Shown here one piece after another: positions 3,714 through 50,300 of a stretch of 64,000 nt of DNA. The position numbers and the translations under genes were made by a program. Source of the DNA: Taeniopygia guttata (taxonomy: Eukaryota > Chordata > Aves > Passeriformes > Estrildidae); contig NC_133027.1 of assembly GCF_048771995.1 (NCBI RefSeq), positions 10,226,001 through 10,290,000 on the forward strand. The letters are read 5' to 3'. The first letter of the stretch is position 1, and each line of letters begins with the position of its first letter. The notes beneath the pieces are model-generated. The model ran no database searches, had not been told where the DNA came from, and saw only the letters and a list, made by a program, of their open reading frames with translations.

Positions 3714-3773
3714 GTTCCAGTGAATGGCCATCTTATCACATCAGTCAACATCAGAGAGAAAAAGCTCCTCAAG
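3714..3773 (+). CDS. MTDH-like exon A (20 codons)
   Basis: The acceptor is a pyrimidine stretch ending cctcctag and the donor is aag|gtacca. It reads VPVNGHLITSVNIREKKLLK, resembling the KPKPNGRTVEV part of MTDH. It ends in phase 0. The exon that precedes it is outside the window, so the start phase is inferred from the only long open frame. Confidence 0.6.
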
Positions 3774-6700
3774 GTACCAGCAAGACTTTTACAGTTTAAA
3801 TATTCTCTTTCAAGAGACAGTTATTTTAAGAATGTTCATTTTTTTTTAAACATAGTTTGTTCTGCCTTGGTTTGCTGCACTTAAGAGATGCTGCAGGAAT
3901 ATAAAACCATGTAATTTTCTGGCACAGCCACATTGTAGTTTTTGTCACTGCCACCACAAGGGGGATGGTCTCATCATCCACAGCAAGTTCCAAGTTGCCC
4001 AGAGGAGATGTCTGCCCTGTCCCTGAAAGTGTTCTAGGCCAGGCTGGATAGGGCTCTGAGCAGCCTGGTCTAGTGGAAGGTGGCAGGGGGGTTGGAACTG
4101 GATGGTCTTTAAGGTCCTTTCTAAACCATTCTGTGATTTTGTGCTTCTAGGTGAGGAGCAGCCCCTGAGTCTGGGCAGGGAGGTACATTTTCTGGCAGAG
4201 GTTTTCCACCTTGGAAAAGTCAAGAATCACTGTTTAAACTAGAACATTCAAAATTTATGTTTTAGGGTTAGCACTACTGTTTCATCAAGCTGTATGCAAA
4301 TGGCCTCAGCTACTCCTGAGCCCTTCAGATTAGTGCAAACTACAGATACCTGCATCAAGAACAAGCAGCTCCATGGTTGGAAAGGGCAGGGGAGGGCTGG
4401 GGTTTTTTTGTTAAGCATTGGCAGGGTCCTAACTCTTGATTATAACACTCCTGATTTTAAAAAGGGTAAATACTTTAGACTTTCTTCCTTCAGAGGAAGA
4501 ACTTTGGAACAATGAATGCAAATCTTACTATAGAGCAGGTACCTGAATTCAAATGTGAACTTTCTAATCTAGCAGATAGGATTTGTAGGTCCAAAGCAAT
4601 AGCATTTATTGGTTTGGAATTTGCAATAAAATCTGTTCAGGAAGACTTTTGCACACACTTAAAAGACTCCAGCAACCCCCTGCTCTCTCTGAGTATCATG
4701 GGTTGTCTTCATTTCACAACTAATGTCCTGATTCTTTTTTCTTCCGGATGAAACATAACAAATATTTATTTTCACTTTCTTCTGTATATCTCCTCTATAC
4801 TGTAGCCTAAGAAGAAGAGGAAAACCCAGTGCTCAGACAAGGACGTGCCAAAAGATTTGCTTTCTGTGGAAAAAGACAAACTGCAAGAGGAAGAAGGTAA
4901 CAAAAGATCTAATTCTTCTATTATCTGATGCATATTACCAAACAATAACATGGGATGAAATATGTCAAAAGGGAGGCCTTCTCTACAATTCTAGAGTTCT
5001 GTGTCAGTGAGGAAAGCTGTCAGTTTGGGAGTTATTTCTATCACCTGCTCCTTTCCACGCGTAACTACGTGGACAGGTGCTGTTGTGATCTGGTTTAATT
5101 ACAGAGGAGTAAAGAGAACTAACTCCCTGTGAATAAAATGGATCGAACCCTGGAAGATTTGAATATACCCAAAAACACAATTCAAACCAATGAGCTTAGA
5201 TGTTGAAATCAAAATATTGATATATTTTATTTAATAGTAAAAGAGGCAAAGAGAAAGAAAGAGAAAAGAAAGAAAAATAGAAAAAGAGGTGTGTGGGGGA
5301 ACAGGGAGAGTGACAAAGATCAGAAATGTATCACCCCTCCATGGGTTCCAATGATGGCTTTTTGCTTCCCTCCATCTGATCTTGGTGGTGAGGGTCCCCT
5401 GCCTTAAATGGATTAATATACATTTGGGGAAATGAGAATGCCCATGTGCCTCCCCTGATGGGGCAAGTTTGACACTGTCCCTTGCAACACTGTGGATCTC
5501 TTGCATCACGAGCAGTGCTCTGGTGCAGGGTCGGGGGACTCTTTCTGGGAGGGGCCTTTGATGGACCAGGACACCTTTCTGCTGTCCCTTAGGATGTCCC
5601 TGAGATGTGGCTTTCCTGGGGTGAAGAGGCCCCACCGCTGAGCTGGTCTGCACAGCAGAGGGTGGGCACTCAGTGTCTCTGGCCAGAGGCTGTGCTGCAC
5701 CCCCAGAACCTTTCCTCTGCCCCCCTTTGGTGCAGGGTCTGTGTGAGCTTGGCAGCTGATAAACCTGGGGCTGTGCTGGGCTGTGCTGGGCTGTGGGTGC
5801 TCTTCCAGATGCTTTGAACAATAGTGTGACCTTCCTTATCTCAAGTTGCCTTATGGGTTTAACTCAGTCCAGGGTTTCAGTCAGGAGGCCCATCCAGGGT
5901 GGCCTTCGGTGGTGCAGCTTCATTATGCACTTTTTCTGTAATGGGCAAAAATCCTTCATAAAGATGTTTAAGCCATAAAATTTCAGTCTCTGACAGGGGC
6001 CATGTGCTTTCCTCCCATACGCCCCGATTCTCGACTGTGTACACAGGGAGGGAAATCTGCAGGTGAGGAAGGATCCCTGAGGTGGTCAGAGGCCCTGTGG
6101 TCAGCAGAGTACTCCCCCAGTCCTGTGGCCTCTGCCCTGCTGATACACAGATGGAGCAGCACGCTGTTGTGCCCATGACTGAGGCTGGTAGAGGTGCTGG
6201 GGCAATTCACAGCCAACTTGTAGCAGGCTTGTGAGCTGGGCCAAGACCTTTGTTTGCAAGCAGATCTGCAGAGAAATCTGGCAGAGGCCAGCAAGGCTCA
6301 GGCAGCTAGAATTTCACTGGAAAATCCACTGCATCCCGTGAGCTCTGCCTCCCCCCACCAAGGGTTGCACTGAAAACAACAAATTCTAAGCTTTTCTGGG
6401 CTTAAAAGATTACAATGTGATTAGTGTGGTGGTGAGGCAAGAGAAGCCCTTGCTGCTGTTGGACCAGAGTCCTTCCTGGGGCCCGTGAGGCTGCTGGGGG
6501 AGAAGGGGACACAGCAGAGGCTTTCTGCAAACAGATATGTAATTTTTTTGAATGGATGAGCCAGCTGAACTGTTTCATGTGTTTTTCAGGGATGCTTCAT
6601 GTGTTCTTCAGGAATGCTTCAGAGAAAGGAAGTGTCTTGGTCAGCTCCAGGGGCTGTGTTTTCTCCTTCATTTACCATTTTTGCCAGCACCTCCTCTGAC

Positions 6701-9700
6701 TTCTTGGGTCATGGAGAGCATGGATGGAGACAGGATGTGGCCCCACGGGTGTGAATGAATGTGTGTGTAAAGCAGCTGAGTAGGAGAGGGTGTCCACATT
6801 GCAGAACAAGTCTAGGGCTAGAGGAACTCAGTAAATTGAAGCCTTATTTAATGGTTAAGATTTTCAGTAACTTCTCCCCCCTGTCAGATATATAAGGTGG
6901 TTGATGCTTTGCTGTGACATCTCCCCCAAGGGAATGGGTGTCACATCAGGCTGACACACAGGACAGAAGAATATGTGCACAGACAGGTCTGTGATGGGGA
7001 TTTCTTATATAATACATCTCTGCAGAGGAAACAAAGGCTGCACACAGGGGACATGCTGCACAAGGTCTGATGTTCTTTTACAGCCAGCATCAGAAACTTT
7101 CAGATGGTTGTTTACCTTGGTGCTAAGCGGTAAAGGCAATGAAGAAAGTTGTTTGATAGCTTAAAAATGAACTTTGCTCTCTGTTATAGGAGTTTGGCAG
7201 ACCAAGATCAGCAGCCGTGAAAAGAGACACTTAAGGAAGGAAAGGCTGAAACAAAAAGGTAAATGTACAGGCTCAATTTGCACACCTGATCTGGCTGGGC
7301 TTGTTACCCCTCCCCACACCCCAGTGTCTCTTTGCTCTATTCATCATTTGGCAGCAAAATCCGTGCACTCACTGAGGCTATTTACTTAAGAAAAAACAGC
7401 TTTGGGAGCTTTTACTTGGGAGCTTGCCTTTTACTCCATGCTCTCATTAAAACACACAGCAGAGCACACAGCATTACCCACAGGACTTTGAAAGCAGATG
7501 TCTGTTAGAGCATAGATCTGCTAAAGGCTTGGTGTCATGTGGGCTTGTTCCTTTTGCATGGCTTGACAGAGGTTTTTTGATAATGGATGTGTAAAAACAT
7601 GAATAATTTTCTCCATTCCAAACAGGTTCTTTAGTCCAGGATTGTCCAGACTAAAGAACTATAATAGGAATAGGCTCTTTTCCTAATGAGTTAAAATGAA
7701 ATGACACTTTGTGCTCACTCCACATTTTTTTTCTGGGGATTTCAAGGTGTCTGCTGTGCACTTACGCCTGTATACATTTCTACTAATCATACAGCAGAAA
7801 TCATAGCAGTTGTATGTAATAACCACTATATGAAAGCAGATAATGGAATTAAAACATTTGGAAGGATATTCATTATATGTGATAAAGTGATCAAAATAAC
7901 CTTAAGGTTTATAATATTAGAGTAATTTAGAAGCTAAGATAGGGGTTTGGATATTGGAGAGACATGGCTGGATTAGGGGATTTAGCTGGATATGTGTGAG
8001 TTAGTGCACTGTCTGCAGTAAGGCTTTTAAAGTGCTCTCAGGTGCCCTATTGAAGGGTAAGACAACATTTTCAATAGAAAAATATACAGACACCTTGAGA
8101 CCACTTTATCTATCATTTGGATTATATAGAGTTAAATATCAAGAGTTTAGGTTTTTGACTCTTGGTTTATCAAGGGTCTTTAAAGACTAGAGGTGCTGAG
8201 GTCACCAGTTTCTCTCCAGTAAATGGGTCCACATTTCCTTCATCGTGTAAGTTGACCTGTTGTCATCAGTGGTGCCAGCTCCACGTGCAGAACCCCACAG
8301 GGATTAACCCTAAGGTCATGCAGGTGTTAAGGGCTTTGCTAACCCAGGAAAGGGAGCTCCAAGTATCATTTGAAGCACCAGAAGTCTTTGGTGCAGTCCT
8401 GCAGCCTGTGCATGAACCCTGGATCATGCTGGCATGGGCATTTACAGGGTAGTGAGATGTGATCTAGGAAGAAGCCCTAACCCTGCCGAGTGCTGGCTGC
8501 TGTTACCTGGCAGGGGAGAAACAGCAGCATCACCATTAAGGTATATGAAGGTGGAGTTGGTGTCAGCAGTGGTCTCCTCCTCACCAGAGCTTCAGAAAAT
8601 GCTTTGCTATTCTGAAGGCTGGAGTCATGAAACACTCGAGGAGTCCTTTGGAACAAAACCGTTGGAGATAACATTCATTTTTTAAAATATTCATATGCCT
8701 GCACTGATTTCGCTAGCAGTCTTGAATGACCAACATCCAAGAGGTTTGCTTTCTTTTTTCTTGGAGGTCCAGCTCTTCCCTTTCTCTCCCTTCACTGCTG
8801 TGGACCCCAGCAGAACCCTGGAGGCCCTGAGCCTCCTCTCCAGGGAGGGATGCCCAAGGCTGCTGTGGCACCATCCTTCTCACATTGGCCTTCCTGTTTT
8901 CCACTCCAGTGCCCCATCCCAGGAGCTGCGTTTCACTGCCACCATGTCTGCAAATAATTTCAGTTGGAAATAGTCTGATGGGTTTAGATCAGGCTTTGTT
9001 CTGTTTTCTCTCCTGAACAACTCTTCCTTGTAATTAAAAATAATGATGATCCTGTTGTAACGATGATCCTGTGGTAATGTTTATTCCCGAGGAGACCCCG
9101 GCAGAGCATCTCTGGGTAGCTCAGCAGCTGAGCCAGCCTTTGACTGGGACAAGAAGGGAGCGGTGTGGCCACTCGCAGAGGACATTGGTGGTGGTGGAAA
9201 AGGTGCTTTCTTTGCCAAGGCAGAGTGTGGGACTGTGCCGAAGGGCTCAGGAGCCCTACGGGAAGAATTGGCACCCTCCAGGTCAGAAGACGATGTTTTC
9301 TCCAATGTAGGTGAGTGTTGACATTCAAATATTGCCAAGGGGAAGCTTCACAAATTGCTGTGTCCTCATCAAAGTGCAGCCCCACTGATATTCATCCTGC
9401 ACACACAGTGTTGTCCACCCCCCTTGGACCCTGCTAGGTGGCATTTATTTCCCAGCAGTGTGAAAAGAGGAGTCCTTATGGCAGGAATTCCTGGTGTTGT
9501 AGACTACCTGCCGGGTGCAAGCTGTTTTCTACCCACAGGTACTATTTGTGTCTTTTACAACCAAAGCCTTCTGAGGATGCTCACATATGGCCAGAGTTAG
9601 GCTGCAGGGTAAATCTGTGTGTTTCAAAAAAGGAAAAGGCAGGGTATTCCTGAATCGAAAGCATTTGATTTTGACTACATTCTCAGTGATTACTTGAGCA

Positions 9701-12700
9701 TGGTGGCTGAATTTAATAAGGCCACATGATGACTCACCTTCAGTAGCATTAATCCAGTACTCTGATGATTCAGAAAATGCTCTTAGGTTGCCCTCATGTG
9801 AGTTACCTTCTCTGCTAGAGTCCTTTTCTTGCAAACTACAGGGTTGATGGGGGAGGACATTAGTACCATTTTTACTCTAATGCTTTCAAAAGGCCATTTC
9901 CAATACATGATGACAACTTTGCCAGCAGTGCATAAAGGGTATCAGTTCAGATGAGTGAAGAATTTAAGTCCAGAGAAGTGGCATGCTGGTGTGACATGCA
10001 CATTAAAAGTCTGAGAAGGTATACATGGTGATGGGGCTGGACTCTCTCTGTCCATAAAGGTGATTTCTCCTTGCTTGATGCTTGTCCAGCAACAGCAGTG
10101 GATGTAGGCCTGGCATTAAGAGAACACGGAAGGGCTGTAATGAGCTTGGGAGCATGAGGTAAAAATTGTGAACATGACATCAGATTTTGGTTACTATTTG
10201 TTTGCATTTTAAATTCAGGAACATGGGATATTGCAGATGTAAAATCCTGTCCTGTGACCCTTGGGACATTGTCAGATCTCTCCAGGGATTTAGGTGAGTG
10301 GCCTCTCGTTGTACTTCTGTCTGAATTCTTGTGTCACTTTCTTAGCTGCTTGGCTGAAAAGGGCTCTCACTGATCACACACGGGTCTTCTCCCCTGGAGC
10401 CACATCTCATTAGTCACTCTCCCTTGCAGAACTTGCTTGCATCTGTAATCCAGCACATCAGTGTTTTAGGGAGCAACATCAGAACCTTTTATTGAGCGCT
10501 TTCCAAACTCGTGTGCTCATCTTGGAATAAATTAAAAAAAAAAAAAAATACTGCCTCCCCTGCAGGTTCTTTCTGTTAGGTTGACTCACAGAGAAGGTTT
10601 CTGTTGTGCTCTGACAACCAACAAATTCAGAGAATTTCAGGCCGAGGGAGGGAGTGAATGTGCAGCTTGGAAAGGCTGTGTTAGAGGCTGCCTAGCCAGC
10701 AGCTTCTCATCCAGCACAGTGAGGGATTTCCTGCCTGAGCCGCTCCCTGAGTGGCCTTGAGAAGGATGGAGCATCTCCTCGTTTTGCACTGGGTTAAGCC
10801 TCGTTTCTGGCTTTCACTTTGCATCTTTGCACCTGTCAGTCTTCACTGATTGACTGCAAGCACCCCTGGTTCATAAATTCCCTGCCTACCAGAAACTCAC
10901 ATTTGACTGAAAGTTTAGCTGGATGATGAATGCAGAGTCTGGTCCTGAATCTGTTAGAGATGCTAAAGACAAACATAGATATATATAGATATCTGTGCAC
11001 AAAACAGAGTGTGTGATGTTAGTTAGAATGCTGAAATCAGCTTCTAAAGCCAGATAAGGCAATTAATATAACACATGCCATATTTAACCATCTGTTTTCC
11101 AACACTTTGTCAGTGTATTCAAGCAGTTCCTAATGTATAAGTACTCAACAAGGATAAATACTTTTTAATATCTGCATTTATGCAGCAAAAAAACCAAACT
11201 GATACACAACTGTATAAACCTCAGAGTTCATTAGGTGAGAGGAAGAAAGGAAAAGTCAGAGATGTGAAAAAGCTGTGATTTATGAAAGATGTGAAGAATA
11301 CCCTAAGTCTGTTATGTACAGGTCTTAGAAAGAGGCTAAGGGGAGTCATTCAGGGAGGCATGTGAATCCTACTATTGCTTTAGTTACTGAAAGTAATCAT
11401 CAAAGCAACTTTTTCCTCCAGCAGTTCTCTTACCTATGCTCTTTCATGGAGCAATTAATTTGGTAATTATGGATTTCTGTTAGCTTGAGCAGAAGCCTTC
11501 TTACTGAAGGTGGTGGGAGTTGGAGCTGGATACTCTGGATGCAGTTTTTGTTCTGCAGGAACTACAGCTGTCTCCTTAGGTCCCCAACAGAGATGTGCCA
11601 GCAGTTTACTTTTAGGAATGTTGTTAGTTTAGCCATTCCTGAGTGAGTTGCTTTTAATATAACTTATGCATGTAGTGTCCTCGTCCGGCCTTTGTTAATA
11701 AACCCACAGTGATGAGAAGCATAGATTAATGTGTGGCTTAAATTACATAACATCCAGGCATTGTGACATAGTGAGCAGACAGAGGCATGATTAATTGGTT
11801 TTAATAATGTGAATATACCTATGTCATTAGCTTTTAAGTTTGGGATTTGGGATTTTTTTGATTTAATTTTGTAATGAAGATGCTTTCCTGTGTGCAGATA
11901 ATGTGAAGAGTAAATCATCTGAGGACAGTCCTTCCAGATGCTGTTGGCATGGCAGCTCAACTTTCCTCCCAGCAGATGATGCGTGGCAGGGGCAGGGTAC
12001 GTCTCTTTGCCCTTTTTCTGTAGACAGACAAGTGCACCAATTCAGGAACTCTCTTCAGTCCATTCCCTAAGCCTCAGACATCAGGATCCACTTCATATGG
12101 CTCATTTGCTGGTCAGGGAGAAATCTCATGTGGGTCTGGTTTTGAGCAGGTGCCCAGAGCTGCTGTGAGCTCAGTCATCAGGGCAGCAGTTGTCCATGTG
12201 GAACCCTTGAGAAGGGTAAGAAAGTGCATTTTATTTGTTTTCCCTCAGAAGAAAAACAAATAATGCAGTAGGTACAGTCTGATTCGGTGCTTCCATAGTG
12301 GTGCAGAGTGTAACTGGAGCTCTGGGCAGCAGCAGCAGCTGTAGGGGGCTGTCTGCAGGCTCTCCAGCAGTGCACCGCTATCAGCTGCGGGCAGATAAGC
12401 ACAGAACAGGGCAAGCACAGGGCAATCCCTCCCCACAGCCTGCAGAGAGCGGGTCAGGGACTTCCTGAGCCACAGGCAGCAGCATGGGCTCTGCGTTTCA
12501 AAAAGCCCCATGTGTTAGCAGTCAACTCAGATTACTGCATTTATGAAACAAGTTCAAAGCTGTTTGGTTTTCATAACTGAAGTATTGTGTTTGCTTCCCT
12601 CCCTCCCATGGTTGTGTGGGAAGGTGGAGCTGAGTGAGCCTTTTCCAGGCAGCTGCAGCCGGAGATCAGTGGGGTGGCTGGGGGAGAGCCATGGGAGGAC

Positions 12701-15700
12701 AGGGTGCTTTTCAAGCTCCATGTACCTTTGCCAAAACTTTAAATTTCCTTGGAAATGCCCTGAATCCAGATGCAGAATACAACTCCAGTGCATTGTGGCA
12801 GTCAGGATTTCGGTCTTTTTATGACTGGTTATGGGTGTTTTTTAGTTTTAAAAGAAAGACAAGCATGGGTCCTGAGTTGCTGGAATAATTTGGCATGAAC
12901 AGTGTGGGTATTAGATGACCTCTTCTCTTGACCTTTTGGTCAGGATCGAGTGAAGTATTTATATATACCCCTGTTGTTGAGAAGCCTTTCTCTGCTCTTG
13001 CAGGAATGATGGCTGATGAGCTGAGCAAACCTCTCTGTGCTCTAGCTGCTCTGATTGCTTAACTGCAGGAGAACCCGGAGAGGTGGAATGCATTAAGGAG
13101 AAAAGATTGTGGTTGTCTTGCTTCTCTGCCCAGTGGTAACTGAAGCTCTGCAGCAGATGCATTATTTCGGCTGTGATTTTATAAATAACACAGTTTGCTT
13201 TAAAAAGAATAAAAACAAAACCTCCAACCCTGAGCCTTCCCTTCCCTTGGTGCTGTGTTTCTTTACTCCTGCGTTGCTGCAAAGGGTGCCTGGCTCTTTC
13301 CAACTTTGGAGCGCTGTCGTGCCCACGTGGGATGGAGGGAGGCAGTGTGGGCAGCTCTTCAACAGCATTCCCTTGCACTACATTTAGCACATGTCAGACT
13401 TGGCACACTCTGGCCTTGATCTGCACTTGCAAAGCCAAGCTTTTGGAGCTCCATATCTGTCTGAGAGTAGAATGATAGGAGCAAATTCAGCAGCTTGCTT
13501 CTGCAAACATCAGAGCAGAAATGTTTAGAGGATTCAGTCTGTCTTACAGCTTGCTGTTTTGTCCTGGTATTTTTTTTCCTTTGAATCATCAGCCTTGCTA
13601 TTGATGCAGGGGAGGGTTGTGTCAAGAACATGTATTCCCTGAATTTAGATGAGGTAATGGTTGGCATTAAGGTTGGCGCTGCAAGCGAAATGAGCTCTTA
13701 GACAGTTAAACATGGCCTGTTAGCTCTTGCAGGTTTGGGAACTAAAAAAAAAAAAAAAGCCATTCATAGCCTAAACATGACCTGGGGTCATTTTATTGAA
13801 TCCAGAGCAGTACATGTAATGAGTCTCTTTGTTCTGTGCTGGGCTGGTACAGCCGAAGGAGCTGGATGCTGGAGTCCTGCCTCTGGCCTGGCTGGTGGAG
13901 CTGCCTTGGCCTGCTCCCTGCTCCACATTGGGTTATCTTTTTGTGAAGTACCAGCAATAACAACACCCTCACTTACAAAAGGCTTGAGATTTAAGTGTTG
14001 GCACAACTGAAAGTATATATACACAGAGGGAGAGAGGGAGTTAGTGGTAAGGGGAACTGGGTAGTCAGTCACTTTCAATCGGGCTGGTTTCCAAACAAGA
14101 CACTCCTGTTTGTTTGTGATTCCTGTCACATTCATTAATGATACACGCTTGGCCAGTGGTTAATTCTCAATTACTGTCATATCTGGAGTCCTGTGTCTAT
14201 TTCTGGGCTCCCAGTACAAGACAGTCAGTGTAATACTGGAGAAGGTCCAGCCATGCCAGTGTATGAGCACCTGATGGAGTCATGACCTGGAGAGTGGGGA
14301 ACAGGCAAATGGGTAAGAATTGAATTTCCACTTACCCATAACTGAAAGCTTTTTTGTATGGGGAGAGTGGTCAGGCAGCAGAACAGTTTGCCAGAGAGGT
14401 TGCAGACTTTCCACCCTTCAAAATATTCAATACTTTGCTGCATTCCTGTGAAACCTGCTGTAGCTGAGCCCTCTGAGAGACATGAGATAGGACTAGACAA
14501 TCTCCAGAGGCCACTTCCAACCTCATTGATTCTGAAATTCTCATTCTGTCGTCAGTCATTTTCTCTGCATATTCAAACTCTAAGCCTTTGTTAGGCTGGG
14601 GGCATTCAGTGTCTTGGAGTTGAAGCCACATGGTCAGCACTGATGGCTGCAGTCCCAGCAGTCCCACCAGCAGGATGAGGTGGCCAGAACGCTGCCATGA
14701 GGGAAGAGGGTCCCCAAGTGGGAAGCTTTGTTCATCATCTTTTTTCCCTACTCATCATTAGTGTTTGCATAGTTTTAATTCCTTTAACGAAGAGAAAGAA
14801 AGGGAGCTGAACCTCTTCTGTTCCTGACATAATTCATGTTATTTTTGAGCCCAGGAAGTGCTCTGCTTGCATCGGGTGCCTTTCTTGCTTCTTCTACAGG
14901 GTTTTTCCTGATCCTCCTGCCTCTGCCTTGGAAGCTTTACTTGCATGTGCTTCCTAATACTCCCTTTGTGTATCTATGCCACACATCTGCCACTGCCCCT
15001 TTGGTGACATTTATGTACTTGAGCTTTGCTGTCCCACAGAATGCATTGCAAGCTGTGGCTGGTTTTGCTGTTGCAAAACATGTAACCCGCACACAGTGAG
15101 GGCTGGGCTGGTTTAGAACATTTGTGTCTGGTTCCAAGGCAAGGGAATACTAATTTTATCCCATGCATCTGTTTCCAAGTGCAGTGGACCTGTGCTTTGG
15201 CAACAGCGCAGTGCAATCTCAGAAAATCCACATTCTGCTTTGCAAATGCAACAGCTCATGACCACGAGAGTAATTTTTTATCTGTCTTGGCATTCTCCCA
15301 ATGAATCCTTCTTGATTGCCAAAGCAAAATTTCTCCATAACCTTAAGAAAAGTTCTGCGTCTCCTGACTCCCAATCTTCCTTCTGTTCCAGAGGTACAAT
15401 CAATTGTAATTCCTTTGTTTTATGGGAATCAGTAGCTTTTTCCCACTAAAAGAAATTGTCAGTCTGAGCTTTATTTGATATTTTGCATCTGCTGAATTAT
15501 TCTGAAGGAAGGTGCCAAATAAGGGATTCTTCCACCCAGCTATTGACCTGTAACACAGAAATTCAAGCTTTGGACTGGAAATTATCTACCCATTTCAACT
15601 GAATGTATTACATACACTTAGTCTACGAGTGATGTCTTGGCCAGGATTTGGGTTAGGATTGTGTTCATAGCACAGTAAACTGCCCTTTGCAAAGGGATGG

Positions 15701-18700
15701 GTTTTCTACAGCAGCCACAGAAAAGCTCGCTGCCATGGACAATACGCAGCCTACTGAGGGGTTTGCCCTCTCAGATGAGCCTCCCTTAAGTTTCTGCTGC
15801 CCATATTTTGCGACAGCATGCTAAGAGAGATGCTGGTAGATTAGAATCCAAATGTACAACTCCAGATTAGAAAATTTTTAATCCCCTTCTTGGTGATACA
15901 GGCTGAGTTTCGCTGCAGTACTTTCCAGTTTCATTTTCCAGGCCAAATAATTAGGTTCAGCCTGTACAGTACTGTACTCCACCCTATCTATCAGCAGGCA
16001 CAGAGAAGTTTCTGACTGTCCCTTTTGACCAGATCCTGCTGCTGTGGGGCCCTGTTTGCCTGCTCCCAACACCCCCAGGGTGCAGCCATCTGCTTCCTGT
16101 CCCTCCTCCTTACACAGGAGAGAGACTGAGACAAAGACATTCAGGTAGTTGGTTCTGGGATGGACTTTCTGCCTGCAGAGGTGCTGGCATCCTCCCTGAT
16201 TTCTGAAGACACCTTCAATGTTGTGCCTTTCATGATCTAAAAGTGTTTTCATTACATGGGGTACATGGAAACCACCTTGGCCTTGAAATGCACTCTGCAA
16301 ATATTTGCTGCCAACAGAAGAGTACAGCTTTGTCTGGGTGCAGTTTGCTGGAGGACTGGGGTGGGTTGCAAGCAAGAACTTAGCTGGAAAATGACATTTA
16401 ACAGCATTGCTTTTGTAAAAATAAACAGCAGGCATTGCCAAGACGTTGGTCTGTGTTGGTGCTGAGAGAGATATCACCTCTGTCGGGGCTAAACCCACAT
16501 GGGGAGCAGGGGACATGCTGCTGCACAGCACATTCCTTTTAGTATTTATGTTCACAGAAATTACTGATCAGTTTTAGCCTGTGAGATAATTGATGACCCA
16601 AGGAGAATCAGATTTAAAAATATAGAGAGTATTCAAAGTTTAAAGACACTGTAGGAGATGTCACTGAAGGGAAATATGCTACACAAAGGAAGAGATTTTA
16701 AGTCAGAGCTTTGAGATAAGTACATTTAATCAGAGCTTTGGGATAAATACATTTAATCCGATTTCCCCATCAAATCCAGCAAGTTTTAAACAATCTTATA
16801 TTGCCCTTAATTTTAGAGTGAGTTGATTTTGAATACCCCTGGGACACAATACTTTGGGAAGAGTATTTCTGAGATGAGGCAGAGTCACCACTGTCTGGCA
16901 GTTTCATGCCCACGTGTGACAAGGGTGAAGCATTAACGTAGGCCCATTGCAGGCAGTTTGCCATCAAAACTATTTTCATGTTTAGAAGTATATACATGAA
17001 TGCACTTTTTGAGATATCAGAAGTTAAAAAGGTGAAAACAACAGTTGTGGCTTTCCATGTGTTAAGTTATGGTCTGTTTTGCTTGCACACCCATGAGAAT
17101 ATACATCAGCAGAGCTGCTGCCTTGAAGCTCAGGGTGCTGAATTCTGTTTTGGACTGGAATTTTATTGGGGAATGCATTCAAAATTACTTATTCCTTTCC
17201 TTTTTGAAGAATGAAAGACATATTGTCTATATAGAGGGTATGGATTTTAAACTGTGAAGCTTGAAAAATGTTTATAATCATGTTTATAACATTTGGCAGC
17301 AAAGTGGTCGGAGCAACTTTTTGGAAACAGTTTTCTTTTATCATTCCCAGCATGCTTTTGGTTTTGGCCCTGCTTCAAGTAAAAGTTTTTACCATCCGGC
17401 TTGGGATTTTTTTTTTTAAGAAAAGTAATCAACTAAGAGCTATTATTATGTTTCTAAACGTATATTGTGTTTTTAAAGCCATTCTTCCTGTTAGGATAAG
17501 ACTTAAGATTGTTACATTCAAATTGCTAAAAAATAATCAAATAGTCCTTTCAACATCTTACGCTGATTTATCTGCTTTTTTTGCACCTCATTCAGTTTGG
17601 GTGAAGGAATTAAACTGGTCTGTTTTGCCTTCTTGACTGAGGATAGTTTGCCAGTGCTTTGTGGAGAGGCAGCTGAGGGCTTGCAGCCAGATTTTCAAAG
17701 GTACCAGATGCTGAAATATAGAGAAACCTAAAAGATTTTGAAAAGCTTTTTGCTCAGTTCCCATGAAATGATCAGAATTGATGCAGAGTAGGTGTTCCCT
17801 ATTTCATGTCAATTTAGAATTGTATATTAAGGAGGTTTGGAAATCAGTGCTGGGATGGTGCTTTTCTGGCTTACAATCAAGAAAAGAAAACAGAAAAGGA
17901 AGATGAAGTTGAGAATGTACTTGGTTCTCTTTTTTGTAGAGAAAGAAGACACCAATGAGAGCAATAATGAATGCACAAATCCTTTGTTAATATTACTCTT
18001 CCATATGAATAACCACCCAGAGGATGGTGTGTTGCAGTGAATGGAAGAGCCTGCTGTGTCTGCCAGTGTTTCTGGATATGCCTCAATCCTTCTTCATAAA
18101 ATTAAAAGGAAATATTTGACAAGCCACACTATTAGTTTTGTAAAGCTTGTTTTCTTGAAGTGCAGGCTAGGAAGGCTTTTGGTTTTGTATGTGCTTTTCT
18201 GCCCTTCTTACTCTCCTGTCCTGAAGTGTGCTGTCACTAATTGTGAATTGGCAGTTAATATATATGTCTTAATACATTTTTCAAATAAATTTATAAATGT
18301 TTTAACACATTTAAGACATGCATACATGCACATCCAAATATCACATAAGCAAGTAAGAAGATGTCAGGTATTTTTGCAGCATTTGTGCTACTCATGTGAG
18401 GCTGGGAAGTAGTATGGATTGGAACATAACTCATTTGTGTGCTTGCCCTAATAGGTGACCCTTCTGTGATTGACCTGGACTCTGACTGGAAAGCTCCCAC
18501 AGAGGAGTGGGGAAACTGGACTGGAGATGAGGAGCCTCAGACAAGGGATGGGAAGAAGGTGAGGCAGTGCTGTTGATGGCCAAGGGAGACCTGGTCCACT
18601 GGGGTCAGCCTCATCCATGCTGGGATCTTCAGTCCAGCCCTGGAGCCAGGCTCCTTCGGTTGTGGGGGTTTTCTCGTGCTGGGAGGAAGTGCTTGGCACG

Positions 18701-21304
18701 GTCCCTGCCTCACCTGAGATAGCTGGAGCTGGGGAACACACTTGCAGGAGGCATGAGATGGGCTAGGGAGAGCTGGCAGGTTCTGGGAGTTCATCATCCC
18801 CCTGGTATCACTGTCCTAAGCAGCAAACCGTGGGTGTTTGCACCCTACTGCTGCTGACCTTCTCAAATACCCAGGCCTTACAAGAGGTGTGGAGTCCAGA
18901 GCTGGCACAGCCTTCACAGCATCTCAGGCAGGCAGGACATATTTATTTAAGTTTGCTGATAAGAGGGTTTGGTGACAATGATACAGTGGTATCTTGGGTG
19001 GAGATGTAGAAGCAGAAGTCTTGCTGTTTAAATGGTTTCTAGAAGCCCAGGGAAGTGTTCCCTTTGGGCAGCAGTGGGAAGAGCAGGCTGAGCTTTTTGC
19101 AAAGATATGTGTTCAGCTGAGGTGTGTACCCATTCCAGAGAGACAGGCCTGCTTGTACACTGTTAGCACACACTCCTGGAGGTAATCAGTTTTCCTGAAA
19201 AAAAATAAAATTAGCTGTCCCATGACTCCTCTTAAAAAATCTGTGAATCTTTCAGGATTTGCCAAAAGGCAAAGCAGGCATTCGTTTCTGTCTTTCTGGA
19301 CCCGAAAGCAAAACACAACGGAAGAAGAAGAAAATGGAAGTGAAGGAAGCAAAGGGTGGAGCTGGACTGAGGCATGTGAGTATTTTGTATTCCAACAGTA
19401 GTGTTTGGTTTTCCATTAGCAGAGGGGGGAATTCTTCTCTGTTAGGATGACCTAAGGGGGACTTTTCTTCCTCTCTGTCTTCTGTCTTTCTCTTCTCTTT
19501 TCTCCCTGTCTTCTCATAAAAACGAGTTATGAGGACAGTGAACAGTGGAGTTTTGCAACATAGTATTCCCTAACATATTTTCAAAACACTTTGATTTTGC
19601 AGTACAGAATGCTGTGCACTAAACTTGGAATGCATCTGCATAAACATTTTTTCATCCATTATTAAAACCAGATGCACTCCAAATTTAGTGTACAATTGGC
19701 CTGTGTTTCATCTGTAGCTGAAGGTCACCCAGAGATATCAACAGTAATGAAAAGGTGGTTCCCAAAAGTCAGTGGAGATAAAACAAGGCCACTGTTCTAG
19801 CACTAAAAAGCTTATTGAGAGAAAAATGTCTCAGAGTGCAACGGAGAAAGGCTGTGGAGAATGTCAGTTCATTTGGGATGGGAAGTGCACAGGAACAGGG
19901 TGTTGACTGGCTTTTGGACCAGTGCTTACCTGTGATTGGTGCTCAGTGAAATGAGAAATTGTGGGGGGAATGCCCGAAATGTCCAAATTGTTTTTCATTC
20001 ACTGGTCACATTTCTGGACATGTAAAGCTGCTTTTTTTTTGGTTTTTTTTAATAATTTGTCTTCCCCTCACACCCACTGTGATCTTTCATGATCCTTGAG
20101 ACGATTTTGCTCCCAGATCTCCTGATGCTTTCATTTTAAGGGAAGGGTTTTAACTACCTCACTGACCACAATCCACATAATCATTAGGACATGCGATCAG
20201 TTCCCAGAGTGCTGCCATACCGTTTTATGTTCTTTTTGGACATAAAAAATGAAATTACATATGAAGCCATATCCACAAAGTTGCTCATCACACTCCTTGT
20301 GCTACCTCCACAGTTTCTGTGGACTTTAGTCATTTAGCAGTCATTGGGCACATCTTACTCCTCAGTGTCACTACACAATGACAGTACTTCCATCTTAGTA
20401 TATCTTGCTGCTCTTCTGTTCACTGGGGGAAGCAAGGGGAGAAATAACACTGAAAGACAATTTCAACACTTTAATCCCCTCTAAAACAAATAAATAAGAG
20501 GTAGGTAGATAACATGGCAAACTATTCTAATCATGTAAAAATTAATTTGTCTTGCAGTTTCTTTAAATGCCCCACAATAATGACATTTTGTCTCATATTT
20601 TGTACTTGCATATGCTTCGTTTAACTCATGCTTAGTGAAGCATATTGTTTCAATTAAGCCTCAGCAAGGTTTGCAAACAAGAATGGAAGAAGACCCCAGG
20701 GACTTGACATCTACAAAAGATAGCAGTGATGCAGTCAGTGCTTCCTTCGAAAAATCCTTGGACATTAATAATTCACCCAATAATGGTAAGTGATTGTTTT
20801 TGCACATCTGATGAATTTTCAGAATAATGTGTAATCTAAGAAGTGTTCACAAATGCATTTTTAATTGAATATGTGAAATGCTTCTCCTTTAGCTGCATAT
20901 TTTAATTCTTTGAGAGGCTCTGTATTACTTAGAGGCTATTCTGACAAATACCTGTTCCTGTTCCTCTCAGAGTAACTGAGCAAAAAAAAAAGCTACTATT
21001 GCATATAGTGACCGTAATTTTTGCACATCTCTTTTCAACATGAAACAGAAGCGAGTATGAGTGAGTTAGAGCCCATTAAAAACATTGAGTCCTCCCCATG
21101 ATTTTGAATTACCCTTGAAAGTAGGTGGCCCTTGTAAAACACACCTAAGAACCCTTAAATCCTCCTCATCAAGCAAAAAGCCAGCAGTTCTCAGGGATAC
21201 AATTGCATGTGGAAGGTTTGTGCATTGTCCCTGTTTTTTGTATGCCAGGTGTACCTGGAAAAAAGGAGAAGAGGAAGAGGAAGAAAATGAAGAAAGAGAC
21301 TTGA
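3714..21304 (+). CDS. MTDH-like gene (metadherin/LYRIC paralogue), 5' part outside window
   Basis: Nine exons with consistent phases and consensus splice sites encode 304 residues. The first exon, expected to carry the membrane segment, lies left of the window. Metadherin is a lysine-rich scaffold protein of ER/nuclear membranes and nucleus that binds the nuclease SND1 and affects NF-kB signalling. Seen here, in order: PxNG segment, PKKKRK nuclear-localisation type block, GVWQTKISSREKRHLRKER (MTDH has GAWETKISHREKRQQRKR), an acidic exon ending SEDDVFSNVG (MTDH SDRSIFSGIG), DSDWKAPTEEWGNW (MTDH NSDWNAPAEEWGNW), DLPKGKA plus a KKKK block (MTDH ALPTGKSKKKK), and a C-terminus KKMKKET-stop (MTDH KKARRET-stop). 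The protein is shorter than MTDH; about 40-90 residues between the REKR block and the W-rich segment have no counterpart that I could find. Many residues differ from MTDH, so this is a paralogue rather than MTDH itself. Its position beside LAPTM4A (MTDH lies beside LAPTM4B) supports this. Whether it already has an annotated name is unknown to me. Confidence 0.85.
3990..4140 (+). mobile_element. CR1: CR1 LINE, 3' end fragment
   Basis: The stretch follows the CR1 3' end: a gttgcccag segment, then ggccaggctggatagggctc, cctggtctagtggaaggtgg, ggttggaactggatggtctt and an ending like aaccattctgtgatttt. It is 5'-truncated and diverged, with indels against the usual avian consensus. It lies in the intron between exons A and B of the MTDH-like gene. 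Confidence 0.85.
4806..4896 (+). CDS. MTDH-like exon B, NLS-type lysine block
   Basis: Acceptor tactgtag, donor g|gtaaca; phase 0 in, phase 1 out. It begins PKKKRKTQ, whose core PKKKRK matches the classic monopartite nuclear-localisation signal, and ends in an acidic QEEEG that joins the next exon as MTDH VDEG does. This corresponds to the KKNKKKSKSD region of MTDH. Confidence 0.75.
5230..6420. other. GC-rich block, possibly an old LTR-type element
   Basis: It starts with a purine-rich run of AAAGAGAAAG type after a TTTATTTAAT sequence (an AATAAA signal read on the other strand), then about 1.1 kb clearly richer in GC than the intron around it, including a GCTGTGCTGG triplication near 5770. 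The start resembles polyadenylation/R regions of songbird LTRs read in reverse. No retroviral coding similarity and no target duplication was identified, so the identity is open. Confidence 0.25.
6574..6617 (+). repeat. 22-bp tandem duplication
   Basis: Two adjacent 22-base units start ttcatgtgtt and end atgc, with two differences. Intronic. Confidence 0.85.
7190..7258 (+). CDS. MTDH-like exon C, TKIS-REKR block
   Basis: Acceptor ctctgttatag, donor g|gtaaat; phase 1 in and out. It encodes GVWQTKISSREKRHLRKER, the best conserved N-terminal MTDH block (GAWETKISHREKRQQRKR). The exon phase also agrees with the MTDH reading across E-G. Confidence 0.88.
7259..9091 (+). other. MTDH-like intron, no further exon accepted
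   Basis: The segment should hold the counterpart of the MTDH exon reading DSTIPGIEN if that exon survives. A 27-nt candidate with good splice sites at 8220-8246 was rejected because joining it to the 9092 exon makes a stop codon. Nothing else convincing was seen. Confidence 0.4.
9092..9310 (+). CDS. MTDH-like exon D, W-containing acidic segment
   Basis: 72 open codons plus split ends, phase 1 in and out; acceptor ttattcccgag (weak), donor g|gtgagt. It contains FDWDKKGAVW and ends RSEDDVFSNVG, aligning with the end of the MTDH exon that reads WSDRSIFSGIG. The 3' end is strongly supported. The 5' end is less sure because the acceptor has a poor pyrimidine tract and a short duplicated 17-base stretch lies just upstream (about 9041-9077). 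Confidence 0.72.
   Translation, partial: ETPAEHLWVAQQLSQPLTGTRRERCGHSQRTLVVVEKVLSLPRQSVGLCRRAQEPYGKNWHPPGQKTMFSPM
10219..10293 (+). CDS. MTDH-like exon E
   Basis: Acceptor tttaaattcag, donor g|gtgagt; phase 1 in and out, 75 nt. It encodes GTWDIADVKSCP followed by a serine/leucine-rich end. The TWDI core resembles QWDV of MTDH, which lies just before the SND1-binding motif. Similarity is weak outside that core; exon order and phase carry the call. Confidence 0.65.
14170..14535 (+). mobile_element. CR1: CR1 LINE, 3' fragment
   Basis: It shows the CR1 order: ctgtgtctatttctgggctc, ggagaaggtccagc, ggtcaggcagcagaacag, ccagagaggttgcagactt, ttcaaaatattcaatac and an end gactagacaatctccagagg followed by ccacttccaacctc. 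It is diverged and 5'-truncated, with a stretch missing in the middle, in the same direction as the host gene. Confidence 0.85.
16704..16757 (+). repeat. 27-bp tandem duplication
   Basis: Two adjacent 27-base units start cagagctttg and end acatttaat, differing at two positions. Intronic, no known function. Confidence 0.9.
18455..18558 (+). CDS. MTDH-like exon F, SND1-binding motif
   Basis: Acceptor cttgccctaatag, donor aag|gtgagg; phase 1 in, 0 out. It encodes DSDWKAPTEEWGNWTGDEE. In MTDH the two outer tryptophans (W394 and W401) of DWNAPAEEWGNW insert into SND1. Both are kept here with the same spacing, so SND1 binding is the likely conserved function. Confidence 0.92.
19256..19375 (+). CDS. 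MTDH-like exon G, KKKK block
   Basis: Acceptor gaatctttcag, donor cat|gtgagt; 40 codons, phase 0-0. It begins DLPKGKAG and has TQRKKKKMEVKEAK, matching [20 protein letters not shown], a nuclear-localisation region. It also has an inserted IRFCLSGPESK stretch not recalled from MTDH. Confidence 0.82.
19614..19693. repeat. Hairpin: 25-bp inverted repeat with 30-nt loop
   Basis: The arm at 19614-19638 (gtgcactaaacttggaatgc...) is the reverse complement of 19669-19693 with three mismatches. The 80-nt unit lies in the intron between exons G and H of the MTDH-like gene. Its size fits a pre-microRNA-like fold or a very small palindromic transposon (MITE); neither is proven. Confidence 0.8.
20665..20785 (+). 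CDS. MTDH-like exon H, serine/acid-rich
   Basis: Donor g|gtaagt is strong. The acceptor is taken as cctcag at 20664; a second in-frame AG at 20658 would add two codons. Phase 0 in, 1 out. It encodes a low-complexity stretch including RMEEDPRDLTSTKDSSDAVS, like the Ser/Asp-rich C-terminal third of MTDH but much shorter. Confidence 0.68.
21249..21304 (+). CDS. MTDH-like last coding exon (KKET stop)
   Basis: Acceptor ttttttgtatgccag; phase 1 in. It encodes GVPGKKEKRKRKKMKKET and a TGA stop at 21302-21304. MTDH ends KQIKKKKKARRET-stop in its own small last exon, so both the basic tail and the final Glu-Thr agree. This fixes the gene's strand and 3' end. Confidence 0.82.
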
Positions 21305-31782: not shown

Positions 31783-44411
<12,629 letters not shown>

Positions 44412-47312: not shown

Positions 47313-50300
47313 GTACCGCAGCGCGCCCGCGGCCGCTCCGCACCACTGCCCCGCGGCCCCGCTCCGCACCATTGCCCTGCCCCGCTCCGCACCGCTGCCC
47401 CGCGGCCCCGCTCCGCACCACTGCCCCGCGGCCCCGCTCCGCGCCCCCTCGCTGCTGCCCCTCTCCCTCGCTGCTGCCCCGCTCCGCGCCCCCTCGACTC
47501 TGCACCGCTCCCTCGCTGCTGCCCCGCTCCGCGCTCCCTCGGCTCTGCTCCGCTCCCTCGCTGCTGCCCCGCGACCGCTCCGCGCCTCTAAACCTCACGT
47601 AGCTCTTCCCTACCTGTGCTCATTGCTCGAAACATCTTTATTTCACACTCGTGGAAGGACCAGGTGGCTGAAAAGCATTTTTTTTTCCTTCTCACTCTAA
47701 AAAAGAGAATTTTTCTGCCTACAAACACTGCACTTCATCTTTTTTTTAAATTTCTTTTCTTTATTTTATTTTTTTTGACAAACCGTGCTTGTCTTTTTTT
47801 CTTTTTTTTTTTTTTCTTGTCTTAATATACGCATGCATGCACTAACATGCTTTAATGTTTTTTCAGCTTCCCAAAGGCAAAACTGAATTACAGGATTAAT
47901 ATGGAATTATATAGAATCTACCTGGGTGGGATCCTAGATTTCTCTGGTCTACTACTCCATCCAAAGGCAAAATCAATTATGCTGCTGTGCTTCCTGAGAG
48001 AATTTGTGCAATTTCATTTTTTTCCTCTGTTTTCACTTGAATCAGAGAAAAAAGGTTTCTAATGACTTGTAAAAAACTAAAAAAATGTTGTTTTCACCTC
48101 TACTTTTAAGACACTTGTGAAGATTTTTAAAATTTAAGCTGGAATGGAATAATAAAAGTAAACTTGATAGTAGCCAGGAGAGGTGTGTCAGGTTAGCCCT
48201 CAAGGTGTGAATTCAAACTGGAAACCTCATATTTTGCTATTTAATGCACTGGTGAGCCAGGATGTTTCTTTTATAGAAATACTCTTGTTTTGGGTTGTCC
48301 ATTTTTCAGCTGCAAATTCAACCTTGATGGCATAAATTAAGTACATGGTACAGTCTGTGTCAGGATGTGGTATCAGGACAAGGAGGGGCATTTCAGTTGC
48401 CTGCTGTCACTGTCTTGATTGGTTTTTGTCTTCCTAGAAGTGATGCTTGTCTCTGATCTAAGCTATGGCTTTTCTGCTTCTGTCTAGATTTATATGGAAG
48501 TGAGGAATTTTATAAATGTGTGTGTAAATGTTCATTTTTACATGTAAAATTCATTAATGAGTAATTTCATTTTTCTCTCTGATCTACAAGCCTTAAAATG
48601 ACAACAATTTCCAAAGAAGCCTTTTTACAACATCATGTTTTCTTTTTCCTTGTTTGCCTTTATTTGTTCTTGTTGTGTATTTTGGATTGTGATTTCCAAA
48701 AAAGAAATAATTCCTAATTAGCAGTTTATATTGTTACTATCCTAAAAAATATTACTGTCTGTTCCCTATGTGATCTACTCAGATGTTTGCCATTTTATTT
48801 CTTTATCTTATAAAAGCTGGAATTCAAACTTTATGAAAATAAATAGTAAATACATTTATATATAACTTTTCCATCTCTTTGTTGGCTGGTTACATGAAAA
48901 CCACAACCCTTTGTTTCAAAGACTGTTAGACATTTTGAGGGCTCAAATAAGCACCTATCTATTAATGTTTAGAAAAAATCAGTTATTTGTTACTCGTCAA
49001 AATTAATGTTTATGACTCTAATATGCTGCTCACTATAATTTGAAGCCTCTTCATAAAGAATCAACCAACATTATCTGGCAGGAGTAGCTTGCCATGGCAG
49101 CACTCACTGCCCTTGGGTGAGTGAGAGCTCCTGTACTGTGTAGGAGATGACTGAAGCATTTTCCTTCCTTCTTGGCAGACGCTGCCTGTAAGAACCGGCC
49201 TCTAGACCTCGTCTTCATCGTAGACAGCTCCCGCAGCGTCCGACCTGAAGAGTTTGAGAAAGTGAAAATCTTCCTGTCAGAAATGATCGATACCCTGGAT
49301 GTCGGTGAAAGAACGACGCGTGTGGCGGTCATGAACTACGCCAGCACCGTCAAGGTGGAGTTTCCCCTCCGGACCTACTTTGACAAAGCCTCGATGAAGG
49401 AGGCTGTGTCTCGCATTGAGCCCTTGTCTGCTGGCACCATGACCGGCCTTGCCATCCAAACTGCCATGGAAGAAGTCTTCACCGAGGAAATGGGCACCCG
49501 GCCGGCAGCCTTCAACATCCCCAGGGTGGTCATTGTTGTGACGGATGGACGGCCACAGGACCAGGTTCAAGATGTGGCGGCGAGCGCCCGGACAGCTGGC
49601 ATCGAGATCTACACGGTCGGGGTGGGCCGGGCAGACATGCAGGCCCTGAGGATCATGGCCAGTGAGCCCCTGGATGAACATGTCTTCTATGTGGAGACGT
49701 ATGGTGTGATCGAAAAGCTGACCTCCAGATTCAGGGAGACTTTCTGTGGTAAGGGGATCAGTCCAAGAGAGCAGTGTAACTTGGCTCCTTTTGACTTCTG
49801 CGGTTCCACTCCTTAAGAAAGAAGCTTTTCAGAAGTATTATGTATCACATCTAAATATTTCCTTTACCATCCATTGGGTAGACAAGCCAACCCTCTTTTT
49901 CAGTACAGGCCAAGTAACGGCCTTTCATTTTGAATAGTGACCTTAGTGTAGGTAACAGACCTGACTCGAGTGGACCTCCTTGTGCAGTTGGTCAGATTTA
50001 GAGAGAAAGAGAAATCACAGCAATCTAGACAAGGTTTGACCGATATATTTATTGCATTACTGCACACCAGAGCTGTGCAGGCTGCTCATTTATTTTCCCA
50101 TCTCACTGGGAAGTAAGGAGGGTGGGCGTGTAGAGCTGAAGGGATTCCCTATAGGTTCAGAATAGAATAATCAGCATGGCAGGTAAACCACTGCAGTGTC
50201 TTGAGTAATCTGGTGCAGGATAAAGTGCTCAAATGCAGCAGCAGGTCATCTCAGGACAGGCTTTCACTCCTTAGGCACTGCTGGGCTTTTCCAGCCTGCC

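Follow-up and report, generated by a model that had tools for sequence, protein, structure and literature searches.

A second gene of the metadherin type, named MTDHL here, was found in a stretch of 64,000 nucleotides from Taeniopygia guttata (contig NC_133027.1, positions 10,226,001 to 10,290,000, referred to as the window). MTDHL is very probably the intact ohnolog of MTDH (MTDH/AEG-1/LYRIC) from the two rounds (2R) of early vertebrate genome duplication and resides in the SDC1-LAPTM4A-MATN3 copy of the syndecan-matrilin paralogon. The gene was recognized by its exons, reading frame, homology, synteny and retained motifs. Window base 1 corresponds to position 10,226,001 of the contig, which is abbreviated as C4 below, and coordinates given without a contig name refer to the window.

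Exon-intron structure of MTDHL

The part of MTDHL inside the window consists of ten phase-consistent GT-AG exons on the + strand, which form a single frame from 3714 to the stop codon at 21304 and comprise 339 codons plus the stop, with an AG acceptor on each exon and a GT donor on all but the last. Since the first of these exons starts at phase 0, a further exon was sought to the left and was located on the + strand at C4:10219683-10219985, 6318 to 6016 bases left of window base 1. This coding exon 1 begins with an ATG, its open frame includes a hydrophobic stretch (the predicted membrane anchor), and its donor (GCGCAG/gtaagg) is in phase 0. It is embedded in a CpG-rich stretch (C4:10219001-10220500), the central 500 bases of which have a GC content of 84% and contain 83 CpG. 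The full gene thus spans 11 coding exons (C4:10219683-10247304) and encodes a protein of 440 residues that is free of stops and frameshifts. A first-pass annotation of the window had proposed nine phase-consistent exons for an MTDH-type protein, with exon 1 to the left of the window; its limits of 3714 and 21304 were exact and the phase-consistent frame, the protein type and the outlying exon were all confirmed, while the count had to be corrected to ten exons in the window plus exon 1 outside.

Among the window exons, all on the + strand, exon 2 (3714..3773, phase 0 to 0) is bounded by the splice sites tag/GTTCCA and CTCAAG/gtacc, and exon 3 (4806..4896, phase 0 to 1) is lysine-rich, as is MTDH exon 3. 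Exon 4 (7190..7258, phase 1 to 1) encodes TKISSREKRHLRK, in which 10/13 residues are identical with MTDH. Conservation is poor in exons 5 (9092..9310) and 6 (10219..10293), both of which run from phase 1 to 1. Exon 7 (11898..11996, phase 1 to 1) has the same length as MTDH exon 7 (99 nt) and carries a W..S....P.DD.W.G block. Exon 8 (18455..18558, phase 1 to 0) encodes DSDWKAPTEEWGNW, by homology the SND1-binding motif, with both tryptophans present. Exon 9 (19256..19375, phase 0 to 0) equals MTDH exon 9 in length (120 nt) and contains the basic cluster RKKKK, while exon 10 (20659..20785, phase 0 to 1) stands where MTDH has exons 10 and 11, one phase 0 exon more. A counterpart of MTDH exon 10 was sought between 19376 and 20658, where four short open phase 0 stretches were present, none of them similar by eye. 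The last coding exon (21249..21304) ends in VPGKKEKRKRKKMKKET-stop, comparable to the ...KKKKKARRET-stop of MTDH.

Membership in the LYRIC family

The full-length MTDHL protein matched the Pfam family LYRIC (PF15686) with 52.7 bits (E 6.5e-14), the best stretch being residues 26-184, from the membrane anchor on. Without exon 1 the score was 43.5 bits, and both values exceed the curated Pfam cut-off of 30 bits. A search of solved structures with MTDHL returned three matches up to E 1, only one of which was below 0.001, namely PDB 4qmg_F ('Protein LYRIC', E 6e-4), which we take to be an MTDH peptide crystallized in complex with SND1. When MTDHL was aligned to this peptide and to MTDH, both tryptophans that contact SND1 (W394 and W401) matched.

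A profile made from the MTDH of the same genome, located on contig C3, and human MTDH was run over 8257 stop-to-stop open reading frames (ORFs), each with 20 residues or more, from a 244 kb region around the window. Exon 8 (E 6.1e-6) and exon 4 (E 0.016) provided the frames at ranks 1 and 2, both on the expected strand, and the best reversed ORF had an E of 1.1. Local alignment of MTDHL with C3 MTDH scored 225-226, compared to a maximum of 96 in 300 shuffles. A DNA pattern for DW-AP-EEWG occurred at exactly two places in 1.14 Gb, one in MTDHL and one in MTDH, with 0 matches for the backward control. The predicted membrane anchors are similarly hydrophobic, with the best 19-residue hydropathy being 2.47 at residue 21 in MTDHL and 2.54 at residue 51 in MTDH.

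Comparison with MTDH of the same genome

In a whole-genome search with the LYRIC family (1.14 Gb in 41 contigs, 98 of 140 candidates scored) all seven matches were on C3. The MTDH gene assembled there (C3:129661926-129692276) has 12 exons and encodes 594 residues with a LYRIC score of 552.5 bits. Its intron phases (0,0,1,1,1,1,1,0,0,0,1) agree in order with those of the ten MTDHL introns (0,0,1,1,1,1,1,0,0,1), apart from one extra phase 0 intron in MTDH. The two genes further share the membrane anchor near the N-terminus, the TKIS-REKR block, the DW-AP-EEWGNW motif, basic clusters near the second and third nuclear localization signals (NLS2 and NLS3), the -ET C-terminus and the families of their neighboring genes.

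Identity between MTDHL and C3 MTDH was 34.5% over 426 aligned residues, and that between MTDHL and human MTDH was 32.0%, compared to 64.5% over 569 residues between C3 MTDH and human MTDH. From these values the split of MTDH and MTDHL would most simply be older than the bird-mammal split, although rate differences could mislead this unrooted comparison. At 83 of the 138 identical degenerate codons the two genes differ synonymously, so that the amino acids were maintained in spite of changes at silent sites. Such silent differences were present at 7/10 of these codons in the TKIS block and at 4/8 in the SND1 block, a pattern that would fit long purifying selection on both peptides.

The differences between the two proteins are considerable. 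MTDHL is shorter (440 residues against 594), has one phase 0 exon fewer and scores far lower against LYRIC (52.7 against 552.5 bits). In the three-way alignment it has a valine at the position of the palmitoylated Cys75, where C3 MTDH keeps the cysteine, and it lacks the basic NLS1, in place of which a glutamate run follows the anchor, whereas NLS1 is represented by no more than a basic stretch in C3 MTDH. An equivalent of K491, present in C3 MTDH, also appears to be missing, and the middle region is shorter than in C3 MTDH. K486 is missing from MTDHL and likewise from C3 MTDH, and does not distinguish the two genes. As a separate observation, C3 MTDH has glycine for Ser298 and arginine for the monoubiquitinated K486; two regulatory sites of human MTDH are thus not conserved in this genome.

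Gene neighborhood and the 2R paralogon

On C4 the gene order is SDC1 (10125164), MTDHL (10219683-10247304), LAPTM4A and MATN3 (10275187), and on C3 it is SDC2 (129364555), MTDH (129.662 Mb), LAPTM4B (129.711 Mb) and MATN2 (129808193), with all eight genes on the + strand. MTDHL lies between SDC1 and LAPTM4A, and the place of the MTDH orthologue between SDC2 and LAPTM4B is held by the C3 gene, not by MTDHL. We take the human order to be SDC2, MTDH, LAPTM4B, MATN2 on 8q22 and SDC1, LAPTM4A, MATN3 on 2p24, the latter without an MTDH-type gene in between.

The coding exons of LAPTM4A (31870..43840, + strand) were identified by tblastn with human LAPTM4A. Their pieces, joined by eye, matched the Pfam family Mtp (PF03821, E 7.7e-14), although the exon 1 frame by itself gave no family match. 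The vWA domain exon at 49187-49747 (+ strand; Pfam VWA, E 1e-53) was found in the genome search and belongs to a gene that is presumably MATN3. On C3, a LAPTM4-type first exon (C3:129711070-129711147) has 21/26 residues as in human LAPTM4A; judged by its sequence and place, we read it as LAPTM4B.

Two more pairs of syndecan and matrilin-type genes were located on C22 (6.460 and 6.494 Mb; C22:6459753-6494088) and C25 (5.898 and 6.040 Mb; C25:5897850-6039713). The SND1 motif pattern was absent from both of these intervals in a search that a motif-less copy would escape, and the MTDH slot in them looks empty, as far as the pattern indicates. A fifth, weak match to the syndecan family was present at C4:94.2 Mb (E 1.5e-4). 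Eight listed matches to the vWA domain at C9:2129398-2150732, all on one strand, perhaps represent a collagen VI-type gene.

Chakravarti and Adams (2006, PMC1464127) placed the four syndecans in paralogous 2R regions together with matrilin and LAPTM genes, and according to the passages available SDC1 has LAPTM4A and MATN3 as neighbors in human, mouse and chicken. The C3 and C4 blocks and the C22 and C25 pairs are this fourfold paralogon, in which members of the SDC, LAPTM and MATN families occur together on paralogous chromosomes. According to the same passages no matrilin was found near chicken syndecan-2, whereas a matrilin-type gene is located 0.44 Mb from SDC2 in the genome analyzed here. 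Neither 'lyric' nor 'metadherin' occurs in the text of that paper as available, and its passages mention no MTDH-type gene beside SDC1. MTDHL fills an empty slot in this classic 2R paralogon.

The first-pass annotation had also placed MTDHL directly upstream of LAPTM4A and MATN3, which do follow on the same strand, and had described it as the duplication partner of MTDH, which is very probable. In gene order, strand and intron phases MTDHL corresponds to a block duplicate within the fourfold paralogon, and the C3 gene, which adjoins the LAPTM4B-type exon, is the true MTDH that had been expected elsewhere in the genome, which rules out the objection that no separate MTDH exists. A position of MTDHL inside bird MTDH, another outcome named as speaking against a partner gene, is contradicted by the identity values given above.

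In the search for MTDH genes beyond these two, no more than the two places in the genome matched the SND1 motif pattern, with the limit that a copy without the motif would escape. The TKIS-REKR pattern matched three places (C3, C4 and one on C7 reading TKIWGREKR), but five matches of the backward control indicate that this pattern alone is not specific. A genome search with the MTDHL protein recovered its 11 exons and, in other places, 14 weak matches (none better than E 0.079), of which 13 were to query residues 4-111.

Origin of MTDHL and alternative explanations

Several points weigh against an origin of MTDHL as the 2R partner of MTDH. The case comes from one genome and from DNA sequence. 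Most exons apart from 1, 4, 7 and 8 are supported mainly by frame, phase and splice sites, and the nine MTDHL exons other than 4 and 8 were absent from the list of the profile scan, which comprised 17 frames up to E 20. Outside the two conserved blocks identity with MTDH is low, and the residues that appear to be missing in MTDHL were read from an alignment across poorly conserved stretches. The position of the human IKK-beta site Ser298 is glycine in both MTDHL and C3 MTDH, and therefore does not set the two genes apart. The SDC, LAPTM and MATN members were named by neighborhood and established gene names rather than by trees. Furthermore, the LYRIC family search of the genome found MTDH exons only and missed those of MTDHL, which reflects its low sensitivity, and the search with the MTDHL protein missed MTDH, so that its silence on further copies is uninformative.

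These points have to be considered together with the other explanations available. A younger, lineage-specific segmental copy of MTDH that was inserted between SDC1 and LAPTM4A and diverged rapidly afterwards would agree with the single genome known and with the shorter, strongly diverged protein. We regard it as improbable, because a random copy must hit the one interval and orientation that mirror those of MTDH between SDC2 and LAPTM4B, and because MTDHL has diverged further from MTDH than C3 MTDH has from its human counterpart. Slightly less probable still is an old ohnolog that has since fallen silent and survives as a relic, its frame open by accident. A case made from DNA sequence and the many stretches of MTDHL unlike MTDH would be in line with a relic, but not the 440 codons in 11 exons without a stop or frameshift, the canonical splice sites, the CpG-island first exon and the conservation of two blocks despite synonymous change. 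Chance assembly of unrelated open frames has to be considered since the exons were first picked by eye and lysine-rich sequence aligns readily. Its probability is negligible, as two exons rank first and second among the 8257 ORFs, the shuffled scores reach at most 96 against 226 and the SND1 motif occurs only in MTDHL and MTDH; a chance chain of exons was rejected on the profile scan and the shuffles. Two other candidates were rejected as well, a processed copy of MTDH because introns are present, and a tandem copy because MTDH and MTDHL are on different chromosomes.

With MTDHL taken as the 2R ohnolog, the gene would have been lost in the human line, as suggested by the human map and by papers that mention no such gene, and its retention in birds is read from the one genome analyzed. 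A broader reading, which we consider quite possible but short of probable, is that vertebrates had a two-gene metadherin family, of which the human line has lost the second member, and that MTDHL is a natural separation-of-function form, which keeps SND1 recruitment at the membrane of the endoplasmic reticulum (ER) but neither the palmitoylation switch nor the nuclear signal NLS1. If so, the mammalian metadherin role descends from a workload once split between two genes.

Possible function of MTDHL

In human MTDH the anchor comprises residues 50-77 with the remainder being cytoplasmic, and W394 and W401 contact SND1; palmitoylation at C75, phosphorylation by IKK-beta at S298, RNA binding in 138-350 and three NLS have also been described in the passages available of a 2025 review (PMC12025727). 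In the MTDHL protein the N-terminus is short, a single anchor is predicted at about residues 21-39, and there are a glutamate run and basic clusters; little of the sequence is conserved otherwise. Most likely, as for MTDH, its anchor would sit in the ER or nuclear envelope and its long tail in the cytoplasm. By its motif MTDHL probably binds SND1, which would be recruited through DW-AP-EEWGNW, and RNA would probably be bound via the basic, presumably disordered part. From the DNA sequence we infer that the gene is transcribed and that the protein is localized and binds RNA in this way. Given that its middle region is shorter and that neither the palmitoylated cysteine nor NLS1 is present, MTDHL would be expected to perform the SND1-related part of metadherin function under a control different from that of MTDH.

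The same review states that metadherin 'does not have any homolog' (PMC12025727). No vertebrate metadherin paralogue was named in the literature surveyed by title and abstract opening. For the duplication of this gene neighborhood the 2006 paper (PMC1464127) was the sole match, and in a 2026 metadherin review, as far as available, the term paralog is absent and no relative beyond species counterparts is named. MTDHL has apparently been overlooked in the papers surveyed, although an automatically made 'LYRIC-like' model may exist in Ensembl or RefSeq. MTDH has been studied intensively as a cancer gene and drug target. A paralogue that has retained little beyond the SND1 motif reveals what was kept constant in evolution and provides a means to separate the SND1 function from the others. 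In an animal with MTDHL, loss of MTDH may be compensated.

Other features of the region

Scans for repeats, RNA families and bacterial-type promoters yielded nothing useful. Two stretches in MTDHL introns (4040-4145 and 14440-14560) resemble the 3' ends of avian CR1 retroposons. To the left of the window, C4:10199501-10201500 has a GC content of 66-74%; in several frames its translation is a repetitive LWAGCWAVGRVLG-type array, probably that of a minisatellite.

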